In this document: positions 12,151 through 54,938 of the stretch, in pieces
Layout of the letters: the number at the start of each line of letters is the position of its first letter
Position numbering within the stretch: the stretch's first letter is position 1
NCBI GenBank assembly: GCA_017743475.1
Contig: JAGHYV010000022.1
Location: 1 to 58,368 of the forward strand
From: Roseiflexus sp.
GTDB lineage: Bacteria > Chloroflexota > Chloroflexia > Chloroflexales > Roseiflexaceae
Direction: 5' to 3'
Length of the DNA: 58,368 nucleotides
The notes under the pieces: generated by a model
What the model saw: only the letters and a program-made list of their open reading frames with translations
Told to the model about the DNA's origin: nothing
The model's database searches: none
Program-made: the position numbers and the translations under genes

Positions 12151-14316
12151 ATGTCAACCCAAGAACTCATCACCCAACTTCGTACCCGTCCTGGGGTGCT
12201 TGCCGTTCATTACGACGAGCAGGAACGTGTGTTGACCTTGCGGTATGACGGCGGTCGCGTCAATGTGGCGGACATTGAAGCGCTTGCCCGCAGCGCCGGT
12301 GCGACGCTGCGCATGTTGCCTGCCGAAACCCGCCCGTTGACGCCGGAAGAGGCGGAACTGGCAGCGTTACCCTGGATGATCCGCCTGACCACGCTGACCC
12401 TGGTGATGGTCATTGTCGGCTGGGTCGTCGAGGATTTCACGACGCTGCCGCGATGGGTCGCCTGGCTGTCGTATGCCGTTGCGTATGCCAGCGGCGGGTT
12501 CTACAGCATCCAGGAGGCCTGGGAAACGCTTCGCAAGCGTCAGTTCGATGTCAACTTTTTGATGATTGTTGCAGCGGTTGGCGCCGCGATTGTCGGGCAA
12601 CCCCGCGAGGGCGCTATTTTGATGTTCCTGTTTTCGCTCTCCGGTACGCTCGAAACGTATGCGATGGGGCGCACTCACGCTTCCATCCGCGCGCTGCTCG
12701 ATATGACGCCGAAGGAAGCTGAGGTGTACCGCAATGGAACACTCATCCGCGTTCCGGTCGAGGCGGTGCAGGTCGGCGAGATTGTGCTGGTGCGCCCCGG
12801 CGCGCAGGTCCCCGCCGATGGCGTGGTTGTGCGCGGCGAGTCGGCGCTGAACGAAGCGTCGATCACCGGCGAGTCGATGCCGGTCGAGAAACGACCCGGC
12901 GCGAAGGTGTTCGCCGGGACGATCAACGGGCAGGGTGCGCTTGAGGTGCGCGTGACGACCTCCGTCGAAAACTCGACGCTGGCGCGGATTGTGCAGGTGG
13001 TGCGCGAGGCGCGCGAACAGAAGGCGAAGAGTCAGGATTTCACCGACCGGGTGATCGGTCAGTACTATGCCTATGCAGTGGTCGGGCTGACGCTGCTGGC
13101 GATCATTGTTCCGCTGCTGTTCCTGGGGTGGGATCTGAAGACGACCCTCTACCGTGCGATGACGTTGATGGTCGTGGCGTCGCCATGCGCCCTGGTCATT
13201 TCGATCCCGGCGGCGCTCCTCTCGGCGCTTGCTTCCGCAGCCCGCGGCGGCGTTCTGTTCAAAGGCGGGCGGTACCTGGAAGCAGCAGCGCAGGTGCGGG
13301 TCGTGGCGTTCGACAAAACCGGCACCCTCACCACCGGGCGCCCCGGCGTCGTGGCGGTCATTCCGGTCGATGGCGCCCCTGTCAGCCTGAAAGAGACGTT
13401 TATCGACACCGATGCGCCAGAACATCCGGCGCAACCGATCCCCGATGACCAGATCGGACCGTTATCACCCGAACAACGATGGTTGCTGGCGCTGGCAGCC
13501 GCCATCGAACGCCCGTCGGAGCACCCGCTGGCGCGGGCTATCGTGCGCGGCGCCGATGAGCGCGGTCTGCCGGTGATCCAGGCATCCGGCTTCGAGGCGT
13601 TGACCGGCGTCGGCGCAACGGCAACGATCCGGGGGCAGCGCTTGACGATTGGACGCCCGATGCTGTTCGACCTGTCGCCAGACCTGATGGAGCAGATCGC
13701 TGCGCAGCAGGAACTGGGGCGAACGGTCGTGGCGTTGGGAAGCGGGCGCACAGTGTGGGGCATCATTGCCATTGCCGACACAGTGCGCCCCGAAGCAGCG
13801 GCGGCAGTCGCCCGGTTGAAGCGCACCGGCATCGAGCGGGTGGTGCTGCTGACCGGCGACAATCATCAGGTGGCGCAGGCGATCGGGCAGGCGCTCGGTG
13901 TGGACGAGGTGCACGCTGAGTTGCTCCCGGAGCAGAAAGTCGCCGTGCTGCGCGAACTTGAGCAACGCTACGGACCGGTCGCCATGATCGGCGATGGCGT
14001 CAACGATGCGCCTGCGCTGGCAAGCGCGACGCTCGGCGTGGCTATGGGCGCTGCCGGGACCGATGTGGCGCTGGAGAGCGCCGATATGCTGTTGATGAGC
14101 GACGATCTGAGTCGTCTGCCGGGCGCGTTGCGGCTGGCGCGACGTGCACGAGCTATCGTGCGACAGAACCTGGCATTCGCTTTTACTGTCATGGCAGTGC
14201 TGATGGTCTTCGCTATGTTCGGCGCCATACCCCTGCCGCTTGGCGTTCTCGGACATGAGGGGAGCACATTGATCGTCGTGGCGAATGGTCTGCGGTTGCT
14301 GACAGAACGAATGTAA
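12151..14316 (+). CDS. P1B-4-type heavy-metal ATPase (Co/Fe/Zn exporter-like)
   Basis: 721 residues. The core motifs of a P-type ATPase are present: TGES in the actuator domain, phosphorylation motif DKTGT (D388), TGDN and GDGVNDAPAL. The membrane metal site is SPC (S344-P-C346) in helix 6 and HEGST (about 702-706) in the last helix region, the combination that defines subgroup P1B-4 (CoaT/CtpD/PfeT), which exports Co2+, Fe2+ or Zn2+ from the cytoplasm. The N-terminal 80 residues look like a ferredoxin-like HMA fold but lack CXXC. It is translated directly after the TrmB regulator, with ribosome site AGGAGGGG inside the end of trmB. It is not a CPC-type copper pump. Confidence 0.92.
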   Translation: MSTQELITQLRTRPGVLAVHYDEQERVLTLRYDGGRVNVADIEALARSAGATLRMLPAETRPLTPEEAELAALPWMIRLTTLTLVMVIVGWVVEDFTTLPRWVAWLSYAVAYASGGFYSIQEAWETLRKRQFDVNFLMIVAAVGAAIVGQPREGAILMFLFSLSGTLETYAMGRTHASIRALLDMTPKEAEVYRNGTLIRVPVEAVQVGEIVLVRPGAQVPADGVVVRGESALNEASITGESMPVEKRPGAKVFAGTINGQGALEVRVTTSVENSTLARIVQVVREAREQKAKSQDFTDRVIGQYYAYAVVGLTLLAIIVPLLFLGWDLKTTLYRAMTLMVVASPCALVISIPAALLSALASAARGGVLFKGGRYLEAAAQVRVVAFDKTGTLTTGRPGVVAVIPVDGAPVSLKETFIDTDAPEHPAQPIPDDQIGPLSPEQRWLLALAAAIERPSEHPLARAIVRGADERGLPVIQASGFEALTGVGATATIRGQRLTIGRPMLFDLSPDLMEQIAAQQELGRTVVALGSGRTVWGIIAIADTVRPEAAAAVARLKRTGIERVVLLTGDNHQVAQAIGQALGVDEVHAELLPEQKVAVLRELEQRYGPVAMIGDGVNDAPALASATLGVAMGAAGTDVALESADMLLMSDDLSRLPGALRLARRARAIVRQNLAFAFTVMAVLMVFAMFGAIPLPLGVLGHEGSTLIVVANGLRLLTERM

Positions 14317-14338
14317 TTCAACTACTGATGAAATAGAA

Positions 14339-14428
14339 CACGGATTGGCACGGATGCGACGGATCAGCACGGATTTTTTCTGCCGATATCCGTGGCAATC
14401 CGTTCCATTCCATCCGTCCTGATCCGTG
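14339..14428. repeat. Hairpin repeat element, copy 1 (left of MNT/HEPN)
   Basis: A long imperfect palindrome built of CACGGAT units on the left and ATCCGTG units on the right, starting and ending with this 7-bp inverted repeat. Its core 14367-14408 (42 bp) is identical to 15291-15332 except for one C/T change. Copy 2 lies on the other side of the MNT/HEPN pair in the same orientation. Confidence 0.85.
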
Positions 14429-14471
14429 ATTGCTTCCCACGAATTGCCGCGGATGTTGGAGTATTCAATGT

Positions 14472-14480
14472 GCTACAATC
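14472..14480 (+). promoter_or_regulatory. Extended -10 promoter for the MNT/HEPN pair
   Basis: TGCTACAAT (TGn plus TACAAT) stands about 50 nt before the MNT start codon. No convincing -35 is seen, as is usual for extended -10 promoters. Confidence 0.45.
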
Positions 14481-14528
14481 TCCAACCAGGATAGACGATT
14501 ATCGCCCTGGCTTCTTTGTGGTGAGAAG

Positions 14529-14849
14529 ATGAACCCTGCCGACTGGCTTCCAGAAATCGTGCAGCGGATTGTTCAGGCGAGCGATCCCGACAAAATCGTG
14601 CTGTTCGGTTCGTATGCGCAGGACGCTGCCGGTCCGGACAGCGATCTGGATTTGCTCGTTGTGCTATCGCATTCTGATCGCCTGCGACAGGATAGCTGGA
14701 GGATACGACGCGCTCTGCGCGGTTTGCTGATCCCTGTCGATATTGTGGTCGCCACCTCCGAGCAGGTGAAACGACTCGGTCAGACGCCGGGATTGATCTA
14801 CCGGACGGCGCTCCAGGAAGGAAGGGTGCTGTATGAGCGTGCCGGGTGA
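14529..14849 (+). CDS. mntA: MNT-type nucleotidyltransferase, antitoxin partner of HEPN
   Basis: 106 residues from ATG 14529; the frame is open upstream, but this start directly precedes the conserved domain. The minimal nucleotidyltransferase signature is complete: IVLFGSYAQ, then SDLDLLVV with both metal-binding aspartates, and a later VDIVVAT supplying the third. In MNT/HEPN modules this protein AMPylates and so silences the HEPN RNase. Its 3' end overlaps the HEPN gene by 17 bp, the usual operon layout. Confidence 0.88.
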   Translation: MNPADWLPEIVQRIVQASDPDKIVLFGSYAQDAAGPDSDLDLLVVLSHSDRLRQDSWRIRRALRGLLIPVDIVVATSEQVKRLGQTPGLIYRTALQEGRVLYERAG

Positions 14850-15228
14850 CGTGGTGCAGGCATGGCTGCGTCGCGCGCGCTCCGACCTGGAACTGGCCAG
14901 GCTTGCTCTCCAGGCAAGCGGCGTGTTACCCGAAGATGCCTGTTTCCACGCGCAGCAGTGCGCAGAGAAGGCCTTAAAAGCGTTGCTGCTACAGGCAGGC
15001 GATGATCCACCGAGAACGCATGCGATCGATGTGTTGCTTGATCGGCTGAAAGTACGCGGCATGCACATTCCTGACAGTGTGGACAGCGCCTTTACCCTGA
15101 CTGAATATGCAGTGCAAACCCGTTATCCTGGCGAGTGGGAGCCGGTGACCTCCGAAGAGGCGCATCAGGCTATAGACCAGGCAGCCCGTGTTCTCGAGTG
15201 GGTAGAAGGCCGGGTTGTTTCCGGATAG
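14833..15228 (+). CDS. hepT: HEPN-domain protein, toxin-type RNase
   Basis: 131 residues. An all-helical HEPN domain: WLRRARSDLELARLAL at the start, then FHAQQCAEKALKALLLQAG. The classic RX4-6H ribonuclease motif is not obvious, and this subgroup (substrate-binding-like HEPN with the HAQQxxEKxLKA signature) may act differently. ATG 14833 is preceded by GGAAGG. Partner of the upstream MNT gene; together they form a TA or defence-type module, here bracketed by two copies of a hairpin repeat. Confidence 0.85.
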   Translation: MSVPGDVVQAWLRRARSDLELARLALQASGVLPEDACFHAQQCAEKALKALLLQAGDDPPRTHAIDVLLDRLKVRGMHIPDSVDSAFTLTEYAVQTRYPGEWEPVTSEEAHQAIDQAARVLEWVEGRVVSG

Positions 15229-15281
15229 CCGACATATTTTCGCGTCCATTCGTTCGATCCGTGGTTTCTTTTTGAAGAGCT

Positions 15282-15347
15282 CACGGATCGGCACGGATTT
15301 TTTCTGTCGATATCCGTGGCAATCCGTTCCATCCGTCTCCATCCGTG
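15282..15347. repeat. Hairpin repeat element, copy 2 (right of MNT/HEPN)
   Basis: Second copy of the CACGGAT/ATCCGTG palindrome, sharing a 42-bp core (15291-15332, one mismatch) with 14367-14408. The outer arms differ in length. It lies upstream of the Uma2 gene. Confidence 0.85.
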
Positions 15348-15450: not shown

Positions 15451-16062
15451 ATGGCTGATACTGTAGCTCTTCCAACGATAACGCTCCGATCACTGGACGC
15501 AGGTTGGAACTATGAGCGTTGGGAGCGCGAACTTCCCGATGACGGCAATCGCTACGAGGTGATCGAGGGCATTCTGTACATGACCACGGCACCAAGTTAT
15601 TTCCACCAGTGGATCGTGCGGCGTCTGGACCAATACATCGGCGTGCCGCTGGAACAACAAGGACTGGCATATGCCGCCACTGCGCCGATTGGCGTGCTGA
15701 TGCCCGGTTGTGACCCGGTACAGCCGGATTTTGTGCTGGTACGCCGTGATCGCGCGGGCATCATTAGCGAACGCCGCATTCGCGGCGCACCTGATCTGAT
15801 CGCGGAAGTGCTGTCACCGTCAAACCCTGAGCAGGACACGATCATCAAACGGCGCGTCTACGCCCGCGCAGGCGTGCCCGAATACTGGATCATTCGCCCG
15901 GAGACGCGCGATGTGCTGGTGTGTCGCAACCCCGACGCCGCGCTCGGCGATTATACATTCACGCTGCTGGTCGGCGCTGCCGAAACCCTGTCGGCGCACA
16001 CGTTCCCGATCACCGTGCCGGTCGCCGAACTCTTCGCAGGCGCGCCGGATACAACGGCGTGA
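15451..16062 (+). CDS. Uma2 family protein (DUF820, PD-(D/E)XK-like nuclease)
   Basis: 203 residues from ATG 15451, with GGGAGAG as ribosome site. The DUF820/Uma2 pattern is clear: YEVIEGILYMTTAPSYFHQW, then QPDFVLVRRD, LIAEVLSPSN and a later KRRVYARAGVPEYWIIRPE. Asp of PDFVLV, Glu of AEVLSPS and the following lysine give the PD-(D/E)XK nuclease arrangement. Members are numerous in Chloroflexota and cyanobacteria and are often linked to mobile DNA, but their substrates are unknown. The end of this gene abuts the remnant of a vapC gene on the other strand. Confidence 0.88.
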   Translation: MADTVALPTITLRSLDAGWNYERWERELPDDGNRYEVIEGILYMTTAPSYFHQWIVRRLDQYIGVPLEQQGLAYAATAPIGVLMPGCDPVQPDFVLVRRDRAGIISERRIRGAPDLIAEVLSPSNPEQDTIIKRRVYARAGVPEYWIIRPETRDVLVCRNPDAALGDYTFTLLVGAAETLSAHTFPITVPVAELFAGAPDTTA

Positions 16063-43128: not shown

Positions 43129-43189
43129 TCTTCATCATTCTGTCGGAGTGCCACATGGTCGTTCTGGAATATTCCTGGCGCGACGGACT

Positions 43190-43470
43190 GCCTGGGTGCG
43201 CGGGCGTCTCGCCCGCACGTAGCGATGCGACTTCAAGGCTTCGGCGTCAGCCATACGAGCAAGGCGCTGCCTGGGAGTGCGGGCGTCTCGCCCGCAGGCA
43301 GCGATGCGACTTCAAGGCTTCGGCATTAGCCATACGAGCAAGGCGCTGCCTGGGTGCGCGGGCATCACGCCCGCATATAGCGATGCGACCTCAAGGCTTC
43401 AACGTTAGCCACACGAACAAGGCGCTGACCAGGTGCGCAGGGGTCTCGCCCGCACGCAGTGATGCAACCC
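43190..43470. repeat. 79-bp tandem repeat, about 3.5 units
   Basis: Units begin at 43190, 43269, 43348 and 43427 (the last is partial). Each starts GCCTGGGTGCGC-like, contains a GCGGGCG-TCT-CGCCCGC hairpin, then GATGCGACTTCAAGGCTTC and a CCATACGAGCAAGGCGCT segment. The period is 79 bp, not a multiple of three, so it is not protein coding. Confidence 0.92.
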
Positions 43471-50413: not shown

Positions 50414-50611
50414 GATGATCCTCGGCGGTGTGCGGCGAGTGCGCCGCCTGTCTGTTCTGAGCGCATTGTAGCACCCTAACCTCTGCAGAAGCCAACAGGG
50501 GTGCAGCACGGGTGCGGCGCACACAGCCCTGGCGCGCCTGCCCAATGTCCTGCGCTTCACCTGCGCTGCGAAGCGCAGCGGAGTGGCGTCGGGTGCAAGC
50601 GTGGGTTGGGC
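50414..50611 (+). pseudogene. Remnant of an MFS transporter 3' end plus its downstream site
   Basis: 198 bp closely similar to 54741-54938. It codes the last 18 residues of the MFS protein (MILGGVRRVRRLSVLSAL, stop at 50469-50471) and continues through the same 68-bp spacer and the attC-like site. To the left of GATGATCCTCGG the similarity stops abruptly. Confidence 0.85.
50540..50611. mobile_element. attC-like site, 72 bp, copy A
   Basis: GCCCAAT (50540-50546) ... GTTGGGC (50605-50611). Arm CGCTTCACC pairs with GGTGCAAGCG apart from one extra base, and the middle has a CTGCGCT/AGCGCAG hairpin. Copy B is at 54867-54938. The sequence right of GTTGGGC differs from that at copy B. Confidence 0.75.
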
Positions 50612-50749
50612 GACTTTACCCAATTCACATATTCCTATCATTTTCTGCAACGTTCTCGTATGGCGCAAGATAGCGAATCGGCTTGCCACGCAGAGGTTCT
50701 CGCCCAGCGCCTGCCGGGTGCTGATGCAATCTCAATGATCTCGACTTTT
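50612..50749 (-). other. Possible remnant of an antitoxin C-terminus
   Basis: On the minus strand a frame reads GREPLRGKPIRYLAPYENVA before a stop near 50620, resembling C-terminal tails of AbrB/Phd-like antitoxins of this group. The start of the gene is absent and the frame is broken near 50705. Weak evidence. Confidence 0.3.
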
Positions 50750-50792
50750 CCCCAGCTGCTTGTTGGGCGACACGGTCAGGTTAGCGCTGGGG
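50750..50792. repeat. Hairpin at the end of TA unit A
   Basis: CCCCAGC (50750-50756) pairs with GCTGGGG (50786-50792) around a GTTGGGC core. The equivalent in unit B, 51784-51826, has CTCCAGC/GCTGGAG, a compensating change in both arms. Confidence 0.7.
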
Positions 50793-50837
50793 GTCCTTGT
50801 GCGCCTCTGCATAGATGCGGAGAGCGGCCTGCATCCG

Positions 50838-51047
50838 TTATTCGTAGTCTTCACCCTGCGCTTTGAACCATGCCAGGACATCCGGGTCACCCTGGATCGT
50901 CACCGTGACCGTGTGCCTGGGGAGCCGCACCGTTGCTCGTTTGAAGAACTCCTCGGTTAACGGCGGAATATCCGAGGTGTCGATTTCATCGTCGGTCATC
51001 GCGTCGATGCGCGCCCAATCAGGTGTTGGTCTGGTTCTTCCGCTCAT
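50838..51047 (-). pseudogene. BrnA antitoxin, copy A, truncated at both ends
   Basis: Carries the BrnA core DWARIDAMTDDEIDTSDIPP and later [20 protein letters not shown] but its N-terminal dozen residues are replaced by codons from an out-of-frame brnT start. The C-terminus ends at TAA (50838-50840) where the intact copy has CAA, losing about 19 residues. The fusion comes from a deletion joining brnT codon 13 to brnA codon 13. Confidence 0.85.
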
Positions 51048-51063
51048 CCCACTCAAATCGCAC
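51019..51063 (-). pseudogene. BrnT toxin, copy A, first 14 codons only
   Basis: GTG 51063 starts VRFEWDERKNQTNT followed by TGA. The first 13 codons equal those of the intact brnT at 52331; the rest is deleted. Confidence 0.85.
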
Positions 51064-51144
51064 AGGTGCAGTATAGCCGGAGAAGGTGAGAAAGACAAGC
51101 CCGTTCACTGGGGGAAATCATCTGATGAGCCAGCACATATCTGG

Positions 51145-51498
51145 CTAGCTCCTGATCCTTACACGCGTCTCTTCAACAATCCATAGAAGGTGTTCAAGCG
51201 GCTCACTGGAAAGCAGTGGTATCAGATGCTCAATGACCTCAAGAACATGGCGTTTATCCTGCCGGTGCAAACGTAAAACTATCAAGCCAGGAAACTGTGG
51301 TGGCGGATATGCACGAATGTCAGCGAAATCCGTGTCCAGGGTGATCAGGACACGCCCCTCCTTCTGGCAAACAGAAGCAATATCGGCATCGAATGAACCT
51401 TCCAGGTGTTGATCAAACACTGTCATGGCATCATAGCCAGCCTGTTGCAACACATTGGCTGCCTCGACCGGCAGATTCTCGTCAATCTTGAACATCAT
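51145..51498 (-). CDS. DUF5615 PIN-like toxin
   Basis: 117 residues. The PIN-like DUF5615 pattern is complete: FKIDENLPVEAANVLQQAGY at the start (acidic DEN), HLEGSFDADIASVCQKEGRV, and LITLDTDFADIRAYPPP with the second acidic cluster. Such proteins are predicted RNases paired with DUF433 antitoxins. It starts 8 bp after the DUF433 stop. This is the intact copy; a C-terminal remnant of a second copy lies at 52386-52520. Confidence 0.87.
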   Translation of the reverse strand: MMFKIDENLPVEAANVLQQAGYDAMTVFDQHLEGSFDADIASVCQKEGRVLITLDTDFADIRAYPPPQFPGLIVLRLHRQDKRHVLEVIEHLIPLLSSEPLEHLLWIVEETRVRIRS

Positions 51499-51506
51499 CG
51501 CGTTGT

Positions 51507-52090
<584 letters not shown>

Positions 52091-52385
52091 GACTCAAGGC
52101 CTTTCGTAGTGAGATGATTCGGATCGTCTCGCTATCTGGTTCAGTGTACACGACCACGACGATTCGGGATCGTAACCGACCAATTCCAATCCAGCGATCT
52201 TCGCCATAGTCGAGTCGATCATCCAGATCGATGAGCATGGGCGCCTCAAAGATTTCCCAGGCATCGGCAAAACTGAAGCCATGCCTGCGAATGTTGGTCT
52301 GGTTCTTCCGCTCATCCCACTCAAATCGCACAGGTGCAGTATAGCCGGAGAAGGTGAGAAAGACAAGCCTGTTCGCTGGAGGAAA

Positions 52386-52551
52386 TCATCTGATGAGCCA
52401 GCGCATATCTGGCTGGCGCCTGATTCTTACCCGTGTCTCTTCAACAATCCATAGAAGGTGTTCAAGCGGCTTACCGGAAAGCAGTGGCATCAGATGCTCA
52501 ATGCCCTCAAGAACGCAGACTCTCGTTAATAATGTAATCTCGCCAGTTCAT
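52386..52551 (-). pseudogene. DUF433/DUF5615 remnant of TA unit B
   Basis: From 52551 the minus strand starts MNWRDYI like DUF433 and then jumps (near 52525) to the C-terminal codons of DUF5615 (EHLLWIVEETRVRIR), ending at 52386. A deletion of about 0.6 kb removed the rest of both genes. Confidence 0.85.
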
Positions 52552-52599
52552 AAGCAGTCTCCCTCATCGTTTCTTCAGATTATACCGTGTTTCTTCTGC

Positions 52600-53230
52600 C
52601 CCGCCCGACGGTGTCGGGCTTAGCCATGCCGCCGAAGGCGGAGTAACTATTCCAAAGACCATAAAGACGAGTAGTTGTCGGGCACAGCGGGAGACATACG
52701 TGGCGCGCCGCTTCCCAGTGCGATGGGCGATACGGGCTGCGGCGCACGGTTAGGGCCGGCGGAGGACTACACCGATTACCGGCAGAACCACGGAGTGCAA
52801 CAGGCGCTTCCCGGCGGCCCAACGGCAGGCATCAGCCGTGCGTGGAAGAGTGCCCGGCAACGCACGGGCGGTCGGCACACGCACAACGTTCCAGATCACC
52901 CTGAGACCGCGCGTCGGCTGCATGCGGTGTTGAGCGACCGGGCATGATGAGGGCCGACTAGAAGGGAGCGGAACGACTCCGGCGCATCGTGACACTTTGG
53001 CTTGTCAGTTCCGGGCGTGCCATGTTGGGAAGTGCATCCGTGGTTCCGGGTTCGTGCGGCGCCGGGCTGGGATGACCATTTGTGGTATGGTTGTCCCGTT
53101 ATGCGCACGTCCGGGGTGTGCAGAGGCTGGCGCCGTTCGCAGTTGCAACGTGCCGTGTTTGGGGCAATGTGCAGTGTCAGCCGACCAGCGCACCAGGAAA
53201 ATCTTCCCGTGAACTCAGGACCTTTCTCCC
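52600..53230. other. Long GC-rich stretch without a clear gene
   Basis: Open frames of 60-90 codons in several phases, none with ribosome site or known pattern. On the plus strand 53060-53200 there is a Cys-rich reading. It looks like decayed gene DNA. A CGCCGAAGGCGGAG hairpin-like spot is at 52630-52643. Confidence 0.4.
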
Positions 53231-53251
53231 TTGCTCCTGAATAATGGTTTG

Positions 53252-53503
53252 ATGTACTGTGTGGAGAATCTTCGTCATTGCCCTTACCAGCGTCTGTTGA
53301 ACGTCGTACTTCGATATCGAGCGTTTAGAGGTTATGCTCGCTTTGCAGAAACGTTCATCGCCGGGTTTGCCGAGCCAATCCGCATTCGCTGTATGCTGGA
53401 TGGAACGGAAGCATATGTGTGTGACAGATGCTGGAATGCTGTCTACCGCTTAGAGCTTGAGCGTCGACAGTTGAGGGAAGGCGCTCACAGGTCCGCCCTT
53501 TGA
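53252..53503 (+). CDS. Small hypothetical protein with a CxxC pair
   Basis: 83 residues from ATG 53252 (TTG 53231 is possible). RHCPYQRLLNVVLRYRAFRG and FAEPIRIRCMLDGTEAYVCD, followed by RCWNAVYRLELERRQLRE. The CDRC pair and an earlier Cys may bind zinc. I do not recognise a family. Its stop overlaps a perfect 11-bp hairpin, and the MFS gene starts 24 bp later. Could be a genuine small gene of the cassette or a decayed one. Confidence 0.4.
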   Translation: MYCVENLRHCPYQRLLNVVLRYRAFRGYARFAETFIAGFAEPIRIRCMLDGTEAYVCDRCWNAVYRLELERRQLREGAHRSAL

Positions 53504-53511
53504 GCGCCTTC
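53477..53511 (+). promoter_or_regulatory. Hairpin between the small gene and the MFS gene
   Basis: GAAGGCGCTCA (53477-53487) and TGAGCGCCTTC (53501-53511), perfect over 11 bp, 13-nt loop. It precedes the MFS ATG by 16 nt and could attenuate or protect the message. Confidence 0.55.
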
Positions 53512-53526
53512 TGCATTGTTGTGCTA

Positions 53527-54798
53527 ATGAAGCTTCTTTCCGACACAGTGCGGGAACGGTCGGTTTGGGCCAATCGTGATTTTTTGTATCTCTGGGGCGC
53601 CACTGTCATCAGCCAGCTTGGCACACAGATCACCTTCCTCGGTTTGCCGTTCCTCGCTGTCACAATGCTGAACGCCACGCCGCTCCAAACCAGTGTGCTG
53701 GCAATGCTCGGCTGGGTACCAGTGGTCGCGCTGGGGTTCGTCGCCGGGGCGATCATCGACCGCGGTCGCCGTCAGCCGGTGCTGATCTGGTGCGATGTGG
53801 CGCGGGCAGTGGTCATGCTAACCGTCCCAGTCGCCTACCTGTTTGGCGGGCTTTCGCTTTGGCAGCTCTATGCAGTGGTGCTGCTGATGGGCGTGTTCAG
53901 CACCTTTTTCGACACGGCATACCAGGCGCGCGTACCCTCTCTGGTACCCGACACGCAACTGGTTGCGGCCAATAGCGGGCTTGAGATCGCCCAGTCGGGC
54001 ACCCGCATCGTCGGTCCCGGGCTGGCGGGCGCGTTGATTGCGCTGCTCACCGCACCACTGGCGATCCTGCTCGACGCTCTGAGCTATCTCCTCTCGGCCC
54101 TGCTGCTTCTGGGCATCCGCGCGCCGGAATCCGTGTCCGATATGCCGCCGTCAGGGACACGCGCCGACCGACCCTTGCGCGTGGACATCAAAGAAGGGCT
54201 GGTGTTCTTCTGGCGCAAGCCATTGCTGCGCTCACTGGTAGGGTGTACGGTGCTAATGAGTGTTGGCTGGGCACTGGTCGAGGGCATTTTTCTGTTCTAC
54301 CTCATCCGCACGCTGGGACTTGACGCGGGGCTGACCGGTGTGATCTTCAGCGTCGGCAACGTAGGGTTGCTGGTCGCTGCCGCCGTGACCGGGCGCCTGG
54401 TTGGGCGCTGGGGGTTGGGACCGGTGGTGGGGAGCGCAGTGGTGCTGCACGCTGGTGGCATCCTGCTGATCGCGCTAGCGCCGCTGGCGCCGTTGCCCTT
54501 CCTGATCACAGGCTATCTGGTGCGGGCAGCGGCAGTGGTGGCCTACAACATCAGCCAGGTGACGATACGCCAGTGCGTCACGCCATCACAGATGCTCGGG
54601 CGCGTCACCGCGACGGCCCGGGTGATTAGCTGGTCGAGCATTCCCAGCGGGCTGATCATCGGCGGTCTGCTGGCGACAGCCATCGGGCTTCAAACAACAA
54701 TCTGGACAGGGGCGCTCCTCAGTTGCTGTGCTTGCATTCCGATGATCCTCGGCGGCGTGTGGCGAGTGCGCCGCCTGTCGGTTCCGAGCGCGTTGTAG
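53527..54798 (+). CDS. MFS transporter (drug/efflux type)
   Basis: 423 residues from ATG 53527 (TTG 53500 is in frame but within the hairpin). Twelve predicted membrane helices. LWGATVISQLGTQITFLGLP is the usual helix 1, and FVAGAIIDRGRRQPVLIWCD carries motif A (GxxxDRxGRRxxL). YQARVPSLVPDTQLVAANSG matches the DHA3/MefA-like macrolide efflux branch (EntS-type). Probably proton-driven efflux of a hydrophobic compound. Its 3' end and downstream site are duplicated as a remnant at 50414-50611. Confidence 0.88.
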   Translation: MKLLSDTVRERSVWANRDFLYLWGATVISQLGTQITFLGLPFLAVTMLNATPLQTSVLAMLGWVPVVALGFVAGAIIDRGRRQPVLIWCDVARAVVMLTVPVAYLFGGLSLWQLYAVVLLMGVFSTFFDTAYQARVPSLVPDTQLVAANSGLEIAQSGTRIVGPGLAGALIALLTAPLAILLDALSYLLSALLLLGIRAPESVSDMPPSGTRADRPLRVDIKEGLVFFWRKPLLRSLVGCTVLMSVGWALVEGIFLFYLIRTLGLDAGLTGVIFSVGNVGLLVAAAVTGRLVGRWGLGPVVGSAVVLHAGGILLIALAPLAPLPFLITGYLVRAAAVVAYNISQVTIRQCVTPSQMLGRVTATARVISWSSIPSGLIIGGLLATAIGLQTTIWTGALLSCCACIPMILGGVWRVRRLSVPSAL

Positions 54799-54938
54799 CG
54801 CCCCAACCTCTGCAGAAGCCAACAGAGGTGCAGCACGGGTGCGGCGCACGCAGCCCTGGCGCGCCTGCTCAACGTCCTGCGCTTCACCTGCGCTGCGGAG
54901 CGCAGCGGAGTGGCGTCGGGTGCAAGCGTGGGTTGGGC
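54741..54938 (+). repeat. 198-bp repeat, copy B
   Basis: End of the MFS gene, a 68-bp spacer and the attC-like site. Copy A is 50414-50611. Both copies are exactly 198 bp and both stop matching right after GTTGGGC. Confidence 0.9.
54867..54938. mobile_element. attC-like site, 72 bp, copy B
   Basis: GCTCAAC (54867-54873) and GTTGGGC (54932-54938) fit RYYYAAC and GTTRRRY exactly. Arm CGCTTCACC (54880-54888) pairs with GGTGCAAGCG (54919-54928) with one unpaired base; the centre is a CTGCGCT/AGCGCAG hairpin. It lies between the stop codons of the converging MFS and retropepsin-like genes, 8 nt from the latter, so it can be read as the attC of either. On the minus strand the unpaired base is in the L''-like arm. 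Confidence 0.78.

Follow-up and report, generated by a model that had tools for sequence, protein, structure and literature searches.

Dispersed hairpin arrays around a Roseiflexus MNT/HEPN gene pair and their association with GxxExxY genes

An MNT/HEPN gene pair of Roseiflexus sp. stands between two near-identical hairpin arrays that belong to a large dispersed family, and arrays of the same class flank genes of the GxxExxY protein family in bacteria and archaea. We consider it probable that the arrays and the GxxExxY gene together form a two-part element resembling REPtrons, that the repeats analyzed here are dispersed copies of it, and that the MNT/HEPN pair is a bystander. The arrays are scattered through genomes and flank GxxExxY genes, their unit type varies together with the protein, and one locus occurs as a pair of alleles with and without the gene.

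The hairpin arrays and their dispersed relatives

We analyzed a stretch of 58,368 nt (contig JAGHYV010000022.1 of assembly GCA_017743475.1), hereafter the window. The features around the gene pair are as follows.

12151..14316, + strand: heavy-metal P-type ATPase gene (TIGR01525, E 1.3e-180), left flank of the MNT/HEPN pair
14332..14436: left hairpin array; four CACGGAT-type units (steps 10, 9, 10), a T-rich loop and four ATCCGTG-type units (steps 10, 14, 10)
14367..14408, + strand: 42-bp core, left copy; one mismatch to 15291-15332
14529..14849, + strand: MNT-type nucleotidyltransferase gene (PF01909, E 1.2e-12); GSx10DxD at residue 27
14833..15228, + strand: HEPN-domain gene (PF05168, E 6.2e-32); RX4-6H not conserved
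15254..15270: remnant, right end of another array; lone ATCCGTG (at 15257) and GTTTCTT
15282..15347: right hairpin array; two CACGGAT units, a loop and four ATCCGTG-type units (steps 10, 9, 10)
15291..15332, + strand: 42-bp core, right copy; one mismatch to 14367-14408
15451..16062, + strand: Uma2-family gene (PF05685, E 9e-30), right flank of the MNT/HEPN pair

An earlier note on this DNA had described a 42-bp core with one mismatch on both sides of an MNT/HEPN pair, in the same orientation and each inside a palindrome of CACGGAT/ATCCGTG units. All of this was confirmed: the two cores lie at 14367-14408 and 15291-15332, the unit coordinates and the folding agree with the palindromes, and the PF01909 and PF05168 matches occupy 14529..15228 between them. 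The note was silent on the stepping of the units, by 10, 9 and 10 bases, and on their dispersal. The units of the left array start at 14339, 14349, 14359 and 14368 and, past the loop, at 14388, 14398, 14412 and 14422, and those of the right array at 15282 and 15292 and, past the loop, at 15312, 15322, 15331 and 15341. The direct repeat extends to 50 nt at 96% identity in the same orientation (14359-14408 / 15283-15332). In single-strand folding, three stretches of the window each beat 200/200 dinucleotide shuffles (z -3.9, -3.9 and -3.7). Among the loci compared, the two arrays are mutual best matches at 85 bits, their best other copies scoring 63.5 and 64.4, and they share the loop TTTTTTCTGYCGAT, which is absent from every other locus compared. 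Their mutual match and private loop make a local duplication or conversion likely. At the place of the remnant at 15254..15270, another genome of the genus (G002) has a full array before Uma2. No known RNA family matched the window at gathering thresholds. PADLOC returned only weak matches, to PDC-S09 for the MNT gene and to PDC-S03 for Uma2, and no match for the HEPN or GxxExxY proteins. Elsewhere in the window, positions 50414-54938 hold three direct-repeat pairs of 198 to 277 nt at 94-96% identity, and positions 43188-43468 a 123-nt repeat in three overlapping copies with a 79-base step.

The arrays are members of a dispersed family. In the genome of the window (G000), blastn with the left array gave 59 matches, itself included, and a two-unit pattern with at most one mismatch gave 179; the reversed pattern gave 0, so that the repeat is not due to chance. 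The full arm, ACGGATNNNCACGGATNNNACGGATNNNCACGGAT, has steps of 10, 9 and 10 bases, and with up to 3 mismatches it matched 77, 74, 89, 1 and 75 times in G000, G002, G003, G004 and G005, all of the genus, and not at all in G006 and G009; every reversed control was 0. The arrays cluster locally in the genome, and 36 of the 38 array clusters of G000 lie outside genes called by a home-made gene finder. Beyond the genus, 11/400 genomes of a phylum sample matched the full arm (at most 2 mismatches), and a scan of GTDB contigs yielded at least 103 stretches with an array, those listed being assigned by record title to Chloroflexota, Planctomycetota, Gemmatimonadetes, Spirochaetia, Bacteroidales, Cloacimonadota and archaea such as Methanoperedens. 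At some loci of G000 (contigs C6, C10, C151 and C193), a second dispersed repeat, around GCCCGCGCAGGCGGGCTT, adjoins half arrays of the CACGGAT type. The same two genes and half arrays recur, oppositely oriented, on contigs C24 and C193, by duplication or assembly redundancy, and copy counts there may thus be doubled in part.

Phased arrays beside GxxExxY genes

A Pfam tally of genes next to arrays gave a hint and no more: PF13366 occurred in 2 of 115 neighbouring genes, in other phyla, the 115 being kept from 147 nearest genes as lying within 800 bp and measuring under 1500 bases. For 115 far genes, the 25 families shown did not include PF13366. G002 has a single PF13366 gene (296,618-296,938), which sits inside the densest array cluster of that genome (C1:293500-300700). 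When the flanks of 17 PF13366 genes were read, phased arrays were seen at nearly all of them, with units that differed from locus to locus (CACGGAT, CGCGGAT, CGCAGAT, CACAGAG, CACGAAG, CACCAAG and others).

We counted the arrays with detectors which, like the unit labels, had first been shaped on examples. The first and stricter one, requiring exact 6-mers that recur at 9-11 bases, found arrays at 14/30 PF13366 loci against 2/30 HEPN loci and 3/29 ATPase/Uma2 loci, with no excess at other spacings. A second set of 30 loci came from genomes selected because they bear the CACGGAT array; with no change to the detector, 16 of these loci had arrays, and other spacings gave 2/30, 0/30 and 0/30. A relaxed detector accepted steps of 8-10, the 8-base step having been added after examples had been seen. 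It was run on the flanks of 100 PF13366 genes, the weakest and edge-cut matches being left out; 4 loci with flanks under 150 bases were dropped (3 in an earlier run of 60 loci). Of the remaining 96 GxxExxY genes, 72 had a phased array no farther than 300 bp away, 37 of them on both sides; the 24 genes at which it found none count against the tie. Arrays were present in 109/194 segments within 300 bp and in 5/104 segments 800-1100 bp away at the same loci. With the same detector, shuffled flank segments gave 4/192 and HEPN control genes, the window locus being left out, 3/29 with none on both sides. In eight plasmid records found by protein similarity rather than chosen for arrays, an array stood on at least one side of the gene in five and on both sides in two.

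Of 29 cross-phylum genomes in which the CACGGAT array occurs, 24 have PF13366; the family was present in 28 of 41 Chloroflexota, a set selected in part for arrays, and in 3 of 14 control genomes. A search of phage records for GxxExxY gave no match, and IMG/VR held one locus, with CACGGAT units on both sides and the downstream array overlapping the end of the open frame. In Sphingomonas (NZ_CP155749.1), fabD and fabG have a GxxExxY gene between them, with a CGCGAAG array upstream of it, and in several Chloroflexota the gene stands between apparently the same two operon genes with differing unit types. Our literature search found no paper linking these hairpin repeats with GxxExxY, PF13366 or TIGR04256, and publications naming GxxExxY, including PMC8934634, make no mention of repeats in the portions available to us.

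The unit type follows the protein. Units were grouped by their last three letters into GAT, GAG, AAG and AAT types, and these labels were mapped onto a protein tree of 97 rows, after rows under 100 or over 190 residues had been dropped; 30 of the 100 loci had no unit label. With near-copies removed (85 non-redundant proteins), the label changed 13 times on the tree against a shuffled mean of 30.4, and 0/200 shuffles were as low. For 53 of 70 genes, the nearest labelled relative in another host group, the groups being set by hand from kinship codes and record titles, had the same unit type; shuffling unit types within hosts gave a mean of 23.7 and a maximum of 38, with 0/1000 as high as 53. Single genomes hold GxxExxY genes of different types, each beside matching arrays.

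The dispersed copies agree in part with the type of gene present. CACGGAT arms (at most 2 mismatches) numbered 67, 70, 18 and 76 in four genomes with GAT-type genes, G002, G003, G264 and G394, and 0 in G004, G163, G272 and G397. Exact CACAGAG triplets numbered 237, 45, 9, 8 and 7 in G397, G163, G272, G001 and G004, and 0 in G002 and G264. Some genomes speak against the tie. PF13366 was not found in G000 or G005 despite 72 and 66 arm matches, nor in G147, which has 25 CACAGAG triplets, and G300 and G224 carry GAG-type genes and no exact CACAGAG triplet. In G000, contig C74 ends 153 bp short of the place where G002 has its GxxExxY gene.

The GxxExxY family (TIGR04256; PF13366 PDDEXK_3) is known by its motif name only. 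All five of the proteins scanned from flanked genes matched the NCBIfam model TIGR04256, at 137-163 bits against a cut-off of 35. The residues G22, G24, E27, Y30, D66, E76, K78 and F108 are invariant in 76 aligned rows, the putative catalytic residues E27, D66, E76 and K78 among them, as expected of an active PD-(D/E)XK nuclease, which the family is predicted to be. An AlphaFold2 model from a five-sequence input reached a mean pLDDT of 94.6. The best Foldseek matches of this model were SSO0001 (E 8.8e-05; VIA-align Z 10.2) and the exonuclease LHK-Exo, followed closely by Hjc, a Holliday junction resolvase (E 1.7e-03); PDB sequences searched with the GxxExxY profile gave no match up to E 1. By its modelled fold and its D and ExK residues, GxxExxY is thus predicted to be a PD-(D/E)XK nuclease.

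A filled and an empty allele of one locus were found in the MAG G001. Contig C167 carries a GAG-type GxxExxY gene and contig C540 lacks it; the left flanks are identical over 140/140 positions and the right flanks are 97.5% identical over 402 bp. The filled allele is 560 bp longer, and the 26 bp that start the array are present there in two copies; the empty allele has one copy of them and retains one whole hairpin array against two. Since the duplicated 26 bp are the repeat itself, they demonstrate no target duplication. At the locus of G005 that matches C167 and C540, there is a single array and no gene. The allele pair fits gain at arrays and loss between arrays alike. The earlier note had envisaged homologous loss that leaves a solo repeat; the single-array allele of G001 is in line with this for the GxxExxY gene rather than for the MNT/HEPN pair.

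The MNT/HEPN pair and alternative explanations

In gene order and domains, the pair of the window is like the HEPN/MNT toxin-antitoxin system HepT/MntA (type VII). MntA has the active-site motif GSx10DxD, and its HEPN partner the conserved motif RX4-6H. The window MNT carries the former (GSYAQDAAGPDSDLD at residue 27). It differs from MntA in staying below the profile cut-off, with 40.5 bits against 60; the HEPN protein matches no NCBIfam model, and its single RX4-6H match, RLKVRGMH, is lost in both orthologues.

The earlier note took the repeats for possible ends of a mobile unit. We consider it very unlikely that they are the ends of a unit carrying MNT/HEPN, with arrays mobilising whatever they enclose. 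What speaks for this is that the pair is enclosed by two near-identical arrays and that the sister genomes G005 and G004 lack both the pair and CACGGAT arrays at the site: the ATPase gene adjoins Uma2 in G005, and the same adjacency is suggested for G004 by two contigs with overlapping ends. The orthologous MNT/HEPN pairs of these two genomes are located elsewhere and have no CACGGAT array next to them. G000 has 12 HEPN matches, and only that of the window is close to an array element among the elements listed; in five genomes, unit pairs occurred within 1.5 kb of HEPN genes at just 2 of 30 loci, the window being one. G002 has arrays beside its ATPase gene (588 kb) and beside Uma2 (5.45 Mb), two genes that have lost their adjacency there, and no MNT/HEPN pair among the matches listed. 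The other array-bracketed segments of G000 contain mostly ordinary genes, for example those for ribosome-silencing-factor-like, nucleotidase-like and aminotransferase-like proteins, as named from our reading of their sequences. On the 2/30 HEPN loci, the array-free orthologous pairs and the ordinary genes bracketed elsewhere, we rejected the view that the pair is cargo and the arrays are its ends; the pair is most probably a bystander enclosed by two local copies of the array. The idea of mobile-unit ends finds no support for MNT/HEPN, the family being dispersed, and fits GxxExxY, which is flanked by the same repeat class. A repeat scattered everywhere with no link to modules was named by the note as telling against its proposal; scattered it is, bracketing mostly ordinary genes, yet it is tied to another module, GxxExxY. 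Downstream of the MNT/HEPN relative in G004 (contig C154), there are CRISPR-like repeats and CACGAAG-type arrays.

Among the remaining alternatives, repeat-driven capture has the best claim, although we still think it unlikely. Here local array duplication and homologous recombination would move adjoining DNA, and arrays would be landing sites or breakpoints for any gene, MNT/HEPN included. The mutual best match of the window arrays with their private loop, the local clustering of arrays and the ATPase/Uma2 synteny of G002 broken at arrays all favour it, but it rests on one locus and leaves the tie to GxxExxY unexplained. Arrays might instead be passive hairpins, terminators or REP-like sites with no enzyme of their own, at which GxxExxY tends to insert. 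This is less probable again: the position of nearly all G000 clusters outside called genes and the solo array of the empty G001 allele, as for a pre-existing target, are in line with it, whereas the unit type tracks the protein across and within hosts, and copies of a type are mostly numerous, with exceptions, in genomes that hold a gene of the same type. It is barely credible that a RAYT/IS200-type (Y1) transposase has the arrays as its REP sequences. Like REPs, they are dispersed intergenic palindromes, but the Y1_Tnp genes of G002 (907,781 and 3,138,680) are more than 60 kb from the nearest element among those listed, and G004, with one element, likewise has two Y1 matches. The distance of the Y1 genes from arrays in G002 led us to reject this link.

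A proposed two-part element and its likeness to known systems

The two-part element that we favour would consist of arrays of a 7-base unit and a GxxExxY gene, normally between two arrays, most copies being solo arrays without the gene. We infer that each putative nuclease is specific for its own unit and cuts the DNA at arrays or close to them, and that repair or annealing between arrays then copies the gene with its arrays to other sites. Recombination between the flanking arrays would delete the gene and leave one array. The MNT/HEPN pair would have come to stand between two locally duplicated arrays. On a broader scale, the chances seem to us evenly balanced that GxxExxY and phased arrays make up a homing-like mobile class of bacteria and archaea, with a unit type (GAT, GAG, AAG or AAT) particular to each nuclease lineage, and that the arrays scattered in environmental genomes are solo relics and non-autonomous copies.

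If this is true, a very widespread intergenic hairpin repeat would gain a candidate enzyme, a protein family named just for its motif would gain a function, and a second pairing of nuclease and repeat, with archaea among its hosts, would stand beside REPtrons. The match of enzyme to unit would be directly testable. The case also advises caution, as a small gene pair may be enclosed by two identical repeats without being a mobile unit.

In a REPtron, an enzyme gene is flanked by its REP repeats. The arrays resemble this system in having many dispersed palindromic copies (77, 74, 89 and 75 arm matches in G000, G002, G003 and G005, with 0 for the reversed arm) and in flanking an enzyme gene (on at least one side in 72/96 GxxExxY genes, on both in 37). 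PMC8266576 describes REPtrons as dispersed intergenic hairpins in many copies with an associated enzyme, TnpA_REP (RAYT), enzyme and repeat co-evolving, a likeness that extends to the arrays and GxxExxY; REPIN populations are a further source of comparison (PMC8049555). The enzyme differs, being an HUH Y1 transposase in REPtrons and a predicted PD-(D/E)XK nuclease (PF13366) here. The repeat described here is a phased array of 7-base units, and its hosts are bacteria of several phyla and archaea.

The allele pair also invites comparison with solo LTRs and homing cassettes. Unlike these, the element showed no reverse transcriptase, intron or known homing enzyme, and a short hairpin array stands in the place of the LTR. 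The likeness lies in the alleles, of which the filled and the empty differ by the gene and one copy of the flanking repeat.
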